Below are positions 1,075 through 44,387 of a DNA stretch of 47,204 nt, piece after piece. Position numbers and translations under genes: made by a program. This DNA comes from a virus, in IMG/VR virus record IMGVR_UViG_3300035698_007038, positions 1-47,204 of that record; one strand, given 5' to 3'. The notes beneath the pieces were generated by a model, which saw only the letters and a list, made by a program, of their open reading frames with translations, ran no database searches and was not told where the DNA came from. How positions within the stretch are numbered: the first letter of the stretch is position 1; each line of letters starts with the position of its first letter.

Positions 1075-1722
1075 ATGATGAAAAAAGGACTATTAATCCT
1101 AGTGTTAGCTATCTTTAGCTTCACTTCGATAGGGGCTAGTGGCAACCTGCTAGTAAAGAAGAATCCAACATATGGTAACGTATATGTACTGCATTCGCAG
1201 GTTAAACAACCAGGTGAATATCGAAGACTGATACATAGATTGCAATCAGCAAACAGTGGCGAAGTAGTTTACATCATCCTGTACAACAATCGTGGAGGAC
1301 ACGTAAGTAGCTTAATAGCGGTAGGAAACGCGATTCGAGATTCAAGAGCACAAGTAATTGTGGAAGGAAGAGGACTGGTAGCTAGCGTAGCTGCTCTTTT
1401 ACTGTTCCAAGGTGATATCGCAGTAATTAACCCTAACTCTAAGATCCTATTTCATAACTTTAGGTTTCCTAGTGGTGTACTAAAGAAAAAGTGGATTGTA
1501 CCTAGTGTTAATAATCAAAATACTATGAGAAAGAGACAGGTATGGAATAATACCCAGTACTGGTACCAACGAACCCACGTAAAACAGAAGTTGACTACGC
1601 GACAATGGAACAAAGCAATACGAGGTGGTGATGTTATTGTTCGAGGCGGTCAAATATGCCAGAAACAAGAACAAATTAAAAAAATGAAGAACGGGGGATG
1701 TATAGTAAGGGGAGTAAAGTAG
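1075..1722 (+). CDS. Exported ClpP-fold (S14-like) serine protease paralogue
   Basis: The 215-aa protein starts with a signal peptide (MMKKG, a hydrophobic core to about residue 18, then small residues and a possible cleavage near 21-23). The body shows the ClpP pattern: NNRGG at about 71-75 (oxyanion strand), GLVASVAAL with Ser104 where ClpP has its nucleophile, and ILFHNF with His127 where ClpP has its catalytic His. Two C-terminal cysteines (about 195 and 209) and a terminal C-x-V-R-G-x-K motif match the paralogue at 43743-44387, where Ser104 and His127 fall at the same positions. The cysteines suggest a periplasmic disulfide. ClpP is normally cytoplasmic and works with an AAA+ unfoldase, so an exported form would act alone. 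The substrate is unknown; peptidase activity is inferred only from the conserved residues. Confidence 0.7.
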   Translation: MMKKGLLILVLAIFSFTSIGASGNLLVKKNPTYGNVYVLHSQVKQPGEYRRLIHRLQSANSGEVVYIILYNNRGGHVSSLIAVGNAIRDSRAQVIVEGRGLVASVAALLLFQGDIAVINPNSKILFHNFRFPSGVLKKKWIVPSVNNQNTMRKRQVWNNTQYWYQRTHVKQKLTTRQWNKAIRGGDVIVRGGQICQKQEQIKKMKNGGCIVRGVK

Positions 1723-4109: not shown

Positions 4110-4183
4110 CGCGGAGTGGTAAAGTAGCATTACGCGGGGCTCATAACCCCGAAGCCCGGGTGCAATTCCCGGCTCCGCTACCA
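4110..4183 (+). tRNA. Initiator-type tRNA-Met (anticodon CAT)
   Basis: Cloverleaf by eye: acceptor CGCGGAG (4110-4116) with CTCCGCT (4173-4179), so 1-72 is a C-U mismatch and 2-7 pair perfectly; A73 and encoded CCA (4180-4183). D-stem GTAA/TTAC with a 7-nt loop lacking the usual GG. Anticodon stem CGGGG/CCCCG (4135-4139, 4147-4151) around loop CTCATAA. T-stem CCGGG/CCCGG with loop TGCAATT, so position 55 is G rather than T. The unpaired 1-72 and the run of G-C pairs at the bottom of the anticodon stem are hallmarks of bacterial initiator tRNA. An elongator Met or lysidine-Ile tRNA is the alternative. The missing D-loop GG together with the altered T55 is odd, as these normally contact each other. 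Confidence 0.8.
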
Positions 4184-4188
4184 ACAAC

Positions 4189-4280
4189 GGGGCTGTTATA
4201 GAAAGAGGTAGTCCATGTGTTCTAAAGAGATACGTGGGATCAACTACCTAACGGTGGTGCAAATCCACCCAGCTCCATCA
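4189..4280 (+). ncRNA. tRNA-like element with tmRNA-type ends
   Basis: Starts 5 nt after the tRNA. The acceptor-like stem GGGGCTG (4189-4195) pairs with CAGCTCC (4270-4276), including a G3-U70 wobble, the alanine identity pair and the same ends as bacterial tmRNA. The discriminator is A, but the tail is TCA rather than CCA. A T-arm GGTGG-TGCAAAT-CCACC (4253-4269) has the same TGC loop as the neighbouring tRNA. There is no recognisable D-arm. The middle is a 7-bp helix AGGTAGT/ACTACCT (4206-4212, 4243-4249) enclosing CCATGTG/TACGTGG. It looks like the tRNA-like domain of tmRNA with helix P2 but without a tag frame. A degenerate tRNA with an insertion is an alternative. Confidence 0.5.
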
Positions 4281-4299
4281 TATGAGTATACATGTGATT

Positions 4300-4690
4300 A
4301 AAGAATTAATCTTAGGAGAAGATTCCTAAGTACTGAATTTGAGTCAGTGTGGCCATTAAGTCGTGCATTGAGGAATTTCGCTACTTTAGGACATTGACTC
4401 AACCTAACATAAGACTTGCTCCTCGGAGCATGAAACTCGGAAGTGAACGTTCCGTCGAGTATAAGAAAGTAGAGGCGTTTATTAAGACCCATGGAGCGTG
4501 TTTCACGTGTAGAAATGGGCGGTTACTGGAGCGGTGCTACGGAAATTCGAAACCGGTTTACCGGCACTATGTAGAAGGAACTGGCGCCGTATGGTAAGGA
4601 AACCCACTGCCTAACCCTGCGTTAGGAGGAGAGCGACACCTGCTCAGAAAGCAAGTGGTGTGACTAGGCGCGGGAGAGACCGTAGCCCTT
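4300..4690 (+). ncRNA. Candidate structured noncoding RNA of unknown class
   Basis: About 400 nt between the tRNA-like element and the next gene, with no credible coding frame but many stems. CTTAGGA/TCCTAAG (4311-4330). A 12-bp helix 4339-4350 with 4391-4402 (one G-U). TGCTC-CTCG-GAGCA (4417-4430). CGGAA/TTCCG at about 4437-4453. CCTAAC-CCTGC-GTTAGG (4610-4626). ACACC-TGCT/AGCA-GGTGT (4636-4661). GCTACG (4536-4541) could pair with CGTAGC (4681-4686) over a long range. Large structured RNAs beside phage tRNAs are known (for example GOLLD), but no match to a named class can be claimed. RNase P, group I and group II intron cores were looked for and not found. Confidence 0.5.
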
Positions 4691-4713
4691 AATTAAAAAA
4701 TAAAAAGGATACG

Positions 4714-27863: not shown

Positions 27864-29489
27864 TCAGTCTATGTCCTCACCATAGTCCGTAACAATCGCG
27901 GCCTCAGTGGTCAACAATAACGTCGCAACACTAGCGGCGTTTTTTAATGCTTCCTTGACTACCTTAACGGGATCGATCACCCCTGCTTCTACTAGATTCT
28001 CGTACTGTCCTGAGGCAGCGTTGAATCCTGTCTCCACATGGGCAGCATCCGTTGTCTGCTGAATAACTAACGTTGGCTCATATCCAGCGTTTTTTGCTAT
28101 CTGCGCTAAGGGAGATGCTAATGCTCGACTCACTATATTAATACCCGCACGTTCAGATGAGTTAGATCCTTTCATATCTTTCAGGAGACTGATGGCCTTG
28201 ACGTATAAGGTACCTCCTCCAGGCACGATACCGCTCTCTGCGGCTGCCTGTACGGCGAATACAGCATCATCAATGCGGTCCTTAGACTCTCTCATCTCAA
28301 GCTCTGTAGAGCCTCCCGCACGTATTACAGCAATTCCTCCTAGGAGCTTAGAAATACGACCCTTCAGGTATGGTATCGCCTTAGCTGCGGCGGGTACATC
28401 TTTAATCTTATCCATAAAGTCATTGATCTGAGAAATCCTATTCTTAATGGTCTTCTTCTTACCTGCACCCCCAACAATTGTTGTATCTTGCCTAGTAACA
28501 ATAACTCGTTTTGCTTGTCCTAAATGCTCCAGCTTACATGACCTAGCATCTACTCCAGTATGGTGTCCTAGAACAGTGGCTCCTGTCAGTGCCGCTAAAT
28601 CTTTAGCTAACTCCGTACCATCCTCTTCGAATCCCATAGGAAAAGCAGTAGCACATACTTTAATAGATCCTTGCATATTATTTATAGCTAAAGTATTAAT
28701 AACTTCTGGTTCGTAAGAGTCAACCAGTAATAATAAAGGCCTGCCTGTGGAGGCCACCTCATTCAAAATATCTACTAGTTCGTGTATAGTATGCAGCTTG
28801 TAATCAATTAACATGACGTAGGCATCTTCATACTCTACCTTCATGTGACGTTGGTTGGTAACGAAATACGGAGAGGCATATCCCTCATCGTACCTCAGTC
28901 CTTCTACGTATTCTATGGTAGTGTCTGCCTGCCTGCCCATTTCAACGGTGATGGCTGCCTCGGCTCCTAACTTAAATTTAGCAGTGGCAATCATCTCGCC
29001 CAGAACTTTGTCCGAATTAGATGAAATTGTAGCGACGTGGGTCAACTCTTTCTTAGTGTTGCAGGGCTTGGCCTGATCATCCATAAAAGATTGTACCTTC
29101 TCTACTGCCTTGTCTATTCCCTTGGTGACGTGTACTACATTGTTGCCTGCCGCAATCGCTTTCTTACCCTCATTGAATATGGCACGAGCCAGTACCGTAG
29201 CTGTGGTGGTTCCGTCACCAGCAATTTCAGCAGTCCGCTGCGCCGCCTGACGTACCATCTGTGCTCCGATGTTCTCGAATGGGTCCTTTAGTCTGCGTAT
29301 AGATTTAGCTACCGTGACTCCATCCTTGGTCACCGCAAAGGCATTAGGTCCTGGCTCAAAGGCGACGTGTCTACCGCCGGGTCCTAGTGTGGCCTGTACT
29401 GCGTCGGCCAATAAGTTAATGCCCTTGGATATTTTCTCGCGAGCAGCTTCGTCAAACTTGACTACTTGATGTGGTTGTTTATTACTCAT
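27864..29489 (-). CDS. groEL: GroEL chaperonin (phage-encoded)
   Basis: 541 aa, full length for the family (E. coli 548). Landmarks: ATLGPGGRHV at about 33-42, TKDGVTVAKSI at about 54-64 (Asp of the ATP site), GDGTTT at 91-96, EGYASPYFVTNQ in the apical GroES- and substrate-binding region, RIDDAVFAVQAAAESGIVPGGG near 395-415 with the catalytic Asp. The C-terminus ends TDYGEDID and lacks the bacterial GGM tail. It should form a 14-mer folding chamber with the phage GroES at 9145. Its ATGA start overlaps the exonuclease stop. The last gene of the minus block. Confidence 0.95.
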   Translation of the reverse strand: MSNKQPHQVVKFDEAAREKISKGINLLADAVQATLGPGGRHVAFEPGPNAFAVTKDGVTVAKSIRRLKDPFENIGAQMVRQAAQRTAEIAGDGTTTATVLARAIFNEGKKAIAAGNNVVHVTKGIDKAVEKVQSFMDDQAKPCNTKKELTHVATISSNSDKVLGEMIATAKFKLGAEAAITVEMGRQADTTIEYVEGLRYDEGYASPYFVTNQRHMKVEYEDAYVMLIDYKLHTIHELVDILNEVASTGRPLLLLVDSYEPEVINTLAINNMQGSIKVCATAFPMGFEEDGTELAKDLAALTGATVLGHHTGVDARSCKLEHLGQAKRVIVTRQDTTIVGGAGKKKTIKNRISQINDFMDKIKDVPAAAKAIPYLKGRISKLLGGIAVIRAGGSTELEMRESKDRIDDAVFAVQAAAESGIVPGGGTLYVKAISLLKDMKGSNSSERAGINIVSRALASPLAQIAKNAGYEPTLVIQQTTDAAHVETGFNAASGQYENLVEAGVIDPVKVVKEALKNAASVATLLLTTEAAIVTDYGEDID

Positions 29490-43742: not shown

Positions 43743-44387
43743 CTATTTCGTCCCTCGTATAAAACAAGAGTCTGATCGTTCATGTATGACACGGGTCCTT
43801 AGCCGGTCCTTACATATACGGGATCCATTCACCGTAATGTTAGATCCATTTAACAAACGTTCCCACTCCTCCCCAGTCACGAAGGTAAATACCCTCGAGG
43901 CCTGATACCACGACAATGTCGCCGTGTAAGTCATAAACTTAAATAAACCTAATTTATTATTAGAGCCAGGTATAATTACTTGTCTGCCACGTTGATACCT
44001 TATGTTATGAAACAGTATTCTAGAGTCGTGGTTTATCTTAACAATGTCTCCCTGAAATACTAACAGTGCGGCGGCACTAGCGATAAGCCCATCGGCTTCT
44101 ATTATTACTGTAGCCTTTGATTTTTTTATCTCAAATGTTAGGGCAGCTAGTGTTCTGACATACCCTCCGTTATTATTTGTTACTACTATATATACAACAT
44201 CTTTTTTCGTACCGTTACGTAGGGCTACTATTAAGTCTTTGTACTCACCTATATTATATCCAATTATACGACTAATATAATATTTCTTACCCGTGACCTT
44301 GTCAGGTTTAACTGCCAGATCCGCCCGGGTCTGTAGGCTTAACACCAGGCTTAGCGTTACCACGACACTTACTAAGATCTTCTTCAT
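43743..44387 (-). CDS. Second exported ClpP-fold serine protease paralogue
   Basis: 214 aa. Signal peptide MKKILVSVVVTLSLVLSLQTRAD with probable cleavage after about residue 22. NNNGGYVRTL at 71-80, GLIASAAALLVFQGD with Ser104, RILFHNIR with His127: the same positions as in the protein at 1075-1722, and the same end pattern (IC...CFIRGTK). It is thus a true paralogue on the other strand and near the opposite end of the genome. Its ATG lies within the 3' end of the upstream coiled-coil gene (80-bp overlap). Confidence 0.7.
   Translation of the reverse strand: MKKILVSVVVTLSLVLSLQTRADLAVKPDKVTGKKYYISRIIGYNIGEYKDLIVALRNGTKKDVVYIVVTNNNGGYVRTLAALTFEIKKSKATVIIEADGLIASAAALLVFQGDIVKINHDSRILFHNIRYQRGRQVIIPGSNNKLGLFKFMTYTATLSWYQASRVFTFVTGEEWERLLNGSNITVNGSRICKDRLRTRVIHERSDSCFIRGTK

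Follow-up and report, generated by a model that had tools for sequence, protein, structure and literature searches.

The window, by which we mean the whole stretch of 47,204 nucleotides analysed here, is a 47.2-kb viral contig. From position 1 to 27.8 kb, its plus strand carries genes for lysis, terminase, portal and head proteins. Between 27.9 and 47 kb, the genes are on the minus strand and encode GroEL, the trio PrkA (YeaG), DUF444 (YeaH) and SpoVR, a DNA polymerase, a helicase and a primase. The GroEL-type chaperonin gene is full-length (27864-29489, minus strand), which was observed here in a 47-kb phage contig, and the PrkA/YeaG kinase, DUF444/YeaH and SpoVR genes lie together in one phage operon (32630-37326, minus strand). 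The same phage encodes two ClpP-like proteases (1075-1722, plus strand; 43743-44387, minus strand). PrkA shows up to 64% identity to proteins of the Proteobacteria, the one phylum sampled, and about 60% identity to proteins of huge uncultured phages. Its likeness to the proteobacterial proteins is a hint at most as to the host.

On the plus strand, the amidase gene is followed by a tRNA gene and then by the small terminase gene. The tRNA is the first part of a noncoding cassette (4110-4712) that has the orientation of the late operon; no strong plus-strand promoter or terminator was found in the window between the tRNA and the late operon. The features of this cassette are as follows:

4110-4183, plus strand: initiator-type tRNA with anticodon CAU, C1·U72 and A18/G55 (ARAGORN, Rfam, alignment with metZ and metU)
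4189-4280, plus strand: tmRNA-like tRNA domain without an mRNA-like domain (Rfam, fold, comparison with the E. coli tmRNA acceptor)
4281-4712, plus strand: noncoding RNA region of about 430 nt that bears the antisense-23S hairpin, with related regions in contigs L034, L035 and L111
4339-4402, plus strand: antisense hairpin closed by UUGAGUCA/UGACUCAA (fold z -2.7 for 4336-4404)
4352-4367, plus strand: second antisense segment, GCCATT-[AAGT]-CGTGCA, complementary to 23S 1963-1974 (duplex calculation, direct reading)
4371-4392, plus strand: antisense core AGGAATTTCGCTACTTTAGGAC, complementary to 23S 1922-1943 at 21 of 22 positions, the exception being a G·U pair
4549-4574, plus strand: second conserved motif, GAAACC-hairpin-GGCAC(U)(A)UGUAG, common to four relatives

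A preliminary description of this locus had reported a CAT-anticodon tRNA with an unpaired C1-U72, a G-C-rich anticodon stem and an A73-CCA end, all of which was borne out. ARAGORN and Rfam found a single tRNA in the window, at 4110-4183 and with the anticodon CAT. This match is not due to chance, since its Rfam score of 56.2 bits corresponds to an E value of 1.4e-9 in a search over the window. Read directly and aligned with metZ (initiator) and metU (elongator) of E. coli, the tRNA has an unpaired C1·U72, which is followed by G2-C71, C3-G70 and G4-C69. The anticodon stem (GGGG-CUCAUAA-CCCC, loop CUCAUAA) consists of C27-G43, G28-C42, G29-C41, G30-C40 and G31-C39, and thus has the three consecutive G-C pairs 29-31/39-41 that, together with CAU, are found in initiator tRNA-fMet. 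The claim of a paired loss of G18/G19 and T55 was half right. The T loop UGCAAUU indeed has a G at position 55, and in the D loop AGUAGCA (A14 G15 U16 A18 G19 C20 A21) G18 is replaced by A18. However, G19 is kept opposite C56, and therefore only one of the two elbow contacts is changed, from G18·Psi55 to A18/G55.

Positions 1 and 72 are paired in elongator Met and Ile2 tRNAs, as also seen for metU in the alignment, and by the unpaired 1-72 the phage tRNA is neither of the two. The pairs G2-C71, C3-G70 and G4-C69 are determinants for the formylase. Taken together, the 1-72 mismatch, the three G-C pairs of the anticodon stem and these three acceptor pairs speak for an initiator-type identity, as far as can be judged from sequence features. 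On the other hand, the D-stem pair 11-24, which was absent from the preliminary description, is U-A as in elongators. A11-U24 is usual in bacterial initiator tRNA-fMet and acts as a secondary determinant, and we therefore speak of an initiator-type tRNA and not of a canonical tRNA-fMet. Compared with metZ, the phage tRNA shares the unpaired 1-72, CAU, the three G-C anticodon pairs and A73-CCA, but it has C1·U72 instead of C1·A72, U11-A24 instead of A11-U24, the A18/G55 combination and a shorter D loop.

By itself, C1·U72 is not unusual. Initiator-type tRNAs with C1·U72 that end in CCGCUACCA were present in 22 of 299 sampled proteobacterial genomes (about 7%) and in 4 of 148 from Bacteroidota, and every match listed had the normal UUC in its T loop. 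The change in the elbow is not common to the one comparable relative, contig L034, whose CAU tRNA at the same place (1794-1867) has C1·A72, the T loop UUCGAAU and GG in the D loop, and does not have the stem with three G-C pairs. An exact 35-mer of the window tRNA revealed no second copy among viral contigs, and no match to the tRNA was found in six genomes. Phages that face the Shigella VapC toxin, which cuts tRNA-fMet, generally avoid encoding tRNA-fMet (PMC10264068).

The more unusual part of the cassette is formed by the neighbours of the tRNA, a tmRNA-like RNA and an RNA antisense to 23S rRNA, both of which the preliminary description had missed. The element at 4189-4280 combines an acceptor stem GGGGCUG/CAGCUCC, which includes G3·U70 and is followed by A73 and UCA, with a long middle hairpin and a T arm GGUGG-UGCAAAU-CCACC, and it has no D stem. 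Its fold has a z-score of -4.9, and none of 200 shuffled versions was as stable. E. coli tmRNA has exactly the same acceptor stem, including G3·U70, the alanine identity signal for AlaRS. The counterpart in L034 (1873-1959; fold z -3.1) keeps G3·U70 and A73, while its pairs 5-68 and 6-67 are altered on both sides relative to the window.

The window copy fits the tRNA family better than the tmRNA family: it scored 21.3 bits with the Rfam tRNA model, which is below the gathering threshold, and gave no match to RF00023. The L034 copy matched the tmRNA model RF00023 with 28.8 bits (E value 8e-8 in a 60-kb search), a value that does not reach the gathering score of 47. ARAGORN found no tmRNA in the window or L034. 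The elements share G3·U70, A73, the T arm and the missing D stem with tmRNAs of RF00023, a class that is also encoded by phages (PMC9004378, PMC7162821). They differ from these in that they are only about 90 nt long, have no mRNA-like domain, tag reading frame or pseudoknots, and score under the gathering threshold. For these reasons we class the element, which rests on two sequences (window and L034), as tmRNA-like and not as a tmRNA.

Three related contigs from one metagenome (L034/L112, L035/L117 and L111/L118) have TerL proteins with 73-79% identity, and all four phages have sequence related to 4281-4712 in this gene position. L035 has no tRNA, and no tmRNA-like RNA was seen in it, which shows that the three parts of the cassette do not always occur together. 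In none of the relatives do the stop-free stretches of this region exceed 94 codons. A search of 4281-4712 against Rfam at permissive thresholds gave no known family except weak tRNA/tmRNA matches, and folding of the minus strand gave a structure no better than that of the plus strand. For the motif at 4549-4574, no rRNA complementarity was found. The pattern GAAACCC..GGGCAC..GTAGG matched five viral contigs, namely the three known relatives and two more, L115 and L116, which showed neither a tRNA nor an antisense match. A further domain at the 3' side (GAGGAG..CGACACCTG..CAGAA..GTGGTGTGACTAGGC) was observed in the window (4626-4680) and L111 (310-400), and is absent from L034 and L035.

The antisense hairpin stands out by its complementarity to 23S rRNA. 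L034 carries GGAATTTCGCTACCTTAGGA, the reverse complement of a 23S segment whose conservation is universal. In BLAST comparisons with E. coli rRNA, the window matched at 21 of 22 positions, L034 at 20 of 20 and L035 over 59 nt at 78%, all antisense to 23S 1920-1972, and the antisense score was not reached by any of 300 Markov-randomised versions of each sequence. L034 and L035 are thus two relatives with the antisense at the same place; in the available part of L111, a contig that starts inside the noncoding region, there was no rRNA match. Across 1.6 Mb of phage DNA from the loci retrieved, most of the matches to E. coli rRNA were dominated by the stretch 23S 1914-1972. The core is kept at 20-22 nt in the window and L034 while its flanks diverge. 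A test for wobble bias was even: when all antisense substitutions were counted, pairing was kept in 13 and lost in 13. The few changes that remain without the degenerate L239 and the helix ends keep pairing, with the proviso that these exclusions were chosen after inspection of the data. When 84,980 genomes were scanned for a non-rRNA form of the antisense, all 111 matches fell within loci with long 23S alignments, and hence no prophage or host copy was found in these genomes.

E. coli rRNA served as the reference for predicted pairing. For the hairpin at 4339-4402, the calculated 23S duplex has -55.3 kcal/mol against -41.3 kcal/mol for the best site elsewhere. Across 70-nt windows of 16S and 23S rRNA, the best partner of 11 of 11 elements was 23S 1915-1984, by a margin of about 6 to 22 kcal/mol that was smallest for L034 (-56.8 against -50.9); these energies leave intramolecular structure aside and refer solely to E. 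coli rRNA. The window hairpin is predicted to pair with 23S domain IV at 1922-1944 and 1963-1974, with helix 71 looped out. We considered that the element might be an rRNA gene fragment or a 23S attachment site. This is not supported, as there is no contiguous identity to the E. coli 23S used for comparison: the window and T4-like versions join two segments and largely skip H71, and elements of this kind occur in three phage groups. An attachment site, being contiguous, would include this hairpin of the rRNA fold, which makes RNA-RNA pairing the natural reading. The complementarity of the RNA across 23S H70/H71 is plain from these comparisons.

Elements of this kind are also found in other phage groups. 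When 2.9 million viral contigs were scanned with a 19-mer, eight matched: L121 and L125, which are real 23S sequence, L034, the T4-like contigs L119, L120, L123 and L124, and L122. A single exact 19-mer match can occur by chance in so large a collection, but a second matching segment and a common gene position make the T4-like matches and that of L122 convincing. The T4-like contigs encode tail sheath, portal, gp23, tail tube and UvsY proteins, and these carriers are marine phages. In these contigs, gp23 is followed by the element and then by the tail tube gene, and there are plus-strand Rho-independent terminators on both sides of the element. Of about 75 gp23 relatives, several sub-lineages have it right after the gp23 stop codon (GCGCCATTCGTG-TAA-GAATTTCGCTACCTTAGGGC), while others have only a small hairpin with a loop that often retains UACCUU. 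Such a hairpin right after gp23 (TTTCC-UACCUU loop-GGAAA) was observed in L241, L247, L256, L281 and others, and is possibly a reduced antisense element. Eight cultured gp23 relatives (HTVC008M, Mosig, Melnitz, P-HM1, S-BM3, DLP6, XG4 and C48C1) have no element after gp23. In L122/L327, the element belongs to a T7-like late block and lies about 210 nt behind a promoter-like site (TTGACA-17-TATACT). In the predicted fold of the 300-nt leader of L122 (1127-1460; z -2.9), the antisense arm and an rRNA-sense-like 5' arm, GGTCTTAAGGTTCGAGGGAAC, form the two sides of a long stem, and a further ClpP-like protease is encoded just downstream of the leader in L327. Antisense elements to the same 23S site are thus present in three phage groups, namely that of the window and two unrelated ones, the T4-like and the T7-like phages.

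The pairing is not uniform across these versions. The window and most T4-like versions are predicted to pair at about 1920/22-1941/44 and 1963/66-1974/78, without H71 (GUCGG...CCGAC, 1945-1961). L237/L240 have three extra pairs at 1959-1961, L035 pairs with much of H71, and the second half is weaker in L034 and L122.

The position of the T4-like element between the gp23 stop codon and a plus-strand Rho-independent terminator points to the antisense strand being the RNA. It is very improbable that the minus strand is functional instead, as an rRNA-like mimic of domain IV. The sequence of that strand reads as conserved 23S core segments, and in L327 an rRNA-sense-like arm pairs with its own antisense arm. 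However, the tRNA, the late genes and the Rho-independent terminators are all on the plus strand, which disfavours this reading, and H71 is absent from the T4-like and window versions. Captured pieces of host tRNA, tmRNA and rRNA without a function would account for the variable presence of the parts, the altered elbow contact of the tRNA and the UCA end of the window tmRNA-like RNA. Such a remnant would not be expected at the same gene position in relatives whose TerL proteins have diverged to 73-79% identity, nor with an antisense core kept at 20-22 nt in the window and L034 amid diverging surroundings, nor with antisense to the same 23S site in unrelated phages, and we regard it as improbable.

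The target site suggests how an antisense RNA might act. The H70 loop UUCCU is single-stranded and is cut by MazF-mt6 in 50S, whereas it escapes cleavage in 70S. An H70 mutation abolishes subunit association; this region is needed for 50S-30S association and contacts tRNA and RRF (PMC5408214). An antisense PNA against the adjacent H69 inhibits growth of E. coli (PMC7038079). With H70 accessible on 50S but not 70S and needed for association, an RNA that pairs with it should act on 50S subunits that are free or immature. In mature 50S, rRNA helices take up parts of the target, and binding may thus need unfolded or immature subunits. We propose, at somewhat short of even chances, that 4110-4712 is a late-operon noncoding RNA cassette acting on the host translation machinery, and that its antisense RNA base-pairs at 23S H70/H71 while the 50S subunit is free or immature. 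The cassette RNAs would be transcribed and processed, and the antisense RNA would bind such 50S at H70/H71 and block subunit joining or 50S maturation. The tmRNA-like RNA could serve as a decoy for AlaRS, SmpB and EF-Tu, and the initiator-type tRNA could supplement initiation. That the antisense RNA acts by preventing joining or maturation is our leading, still tentative, account of the mechanism.

MazF-mt3 and MazF-mt6 both cleave at the UUCCU site (PMC5408214), which the same duplex would span. The RNA might accordingly guard H70/H71 of idle 50S against nucleases, such as MazF-type abortive-infection toxins or decay nucleases, so that ribosomes stay usable. We consider this rather doubtful: the H70-cutting toxins are described in mycobacteria, and if the same RNA also prevented subunit joining, it would need to be taken off again. 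An action in cis is unlikely, albeit worth weighing. In this case, the antisense would tether free 50S to the late structural mRNA, on the downstream or leader side, and so raise re-initiation on capsid and packaging genes. In its favour, the element is part of a late structural operon in all three phage groups and has the sense orientation there: it follows gp23 in the T4-like phages, precedes the TerL/connector/capsid block in L327 and comes before TerS/TerL in the window. However, a pairing of about 35 bp would not easily come apart round after round, and the T4-like terminator follows at once, so that the element there looks more like a 3'UTR-derived RNA. Returning to action on free or immature 50S, there is close to an even chance, in our estimate, that a class of phage RNAs that evolved more than once pairs across 23S helix 71 on such subunits and controls the host ribosome pool late in infection; in the window, such an RNA would be combined with the initiator-type tRNA and with a tmRNA-like decoy that lacks a message.

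No Rfam family covers the antisense element, and no description of it was found in the open-access full-text literature, a body of work outside of which most subscription journals lie. As far as can be told, the antisense-23S element is of a new kind. This novelty applies to the antisense element; the tRNA alone would be a new version of a kind already known. If the proposal is true, the tmRNA-like RNA would be a natural example of a tmRNA whose alanine-accepting half has become separate from the message. The antisense element also offers a testable handle, namely a short RNA with a defined target at the 23S subunit interface and with predictions for 50S binding and subunit joining. With the H69 antisense PNAs (PMC7038079) and natural antisense small RNAs it shares sequence-specific pairing to the subunit-interface region of 23S, which is predicted here. 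It differs from the PNAs in being a natural RNA encoded by phages, matched by no Rfam 15 family, with a discontiguous pairing that loops out H71. Huge phages carry genes for rpS21, rpS1 and IF1/IF3 (PMC7162821), and both these genes and the present cassette are proposed to redirect host translation. The former encode proteins, whereas the cassette consists of noncoding RNAs. The redirection of host ribosomes by phage proteins is already known, and an RNA aimed at the rRNA itself would, if true, be a new strategy.
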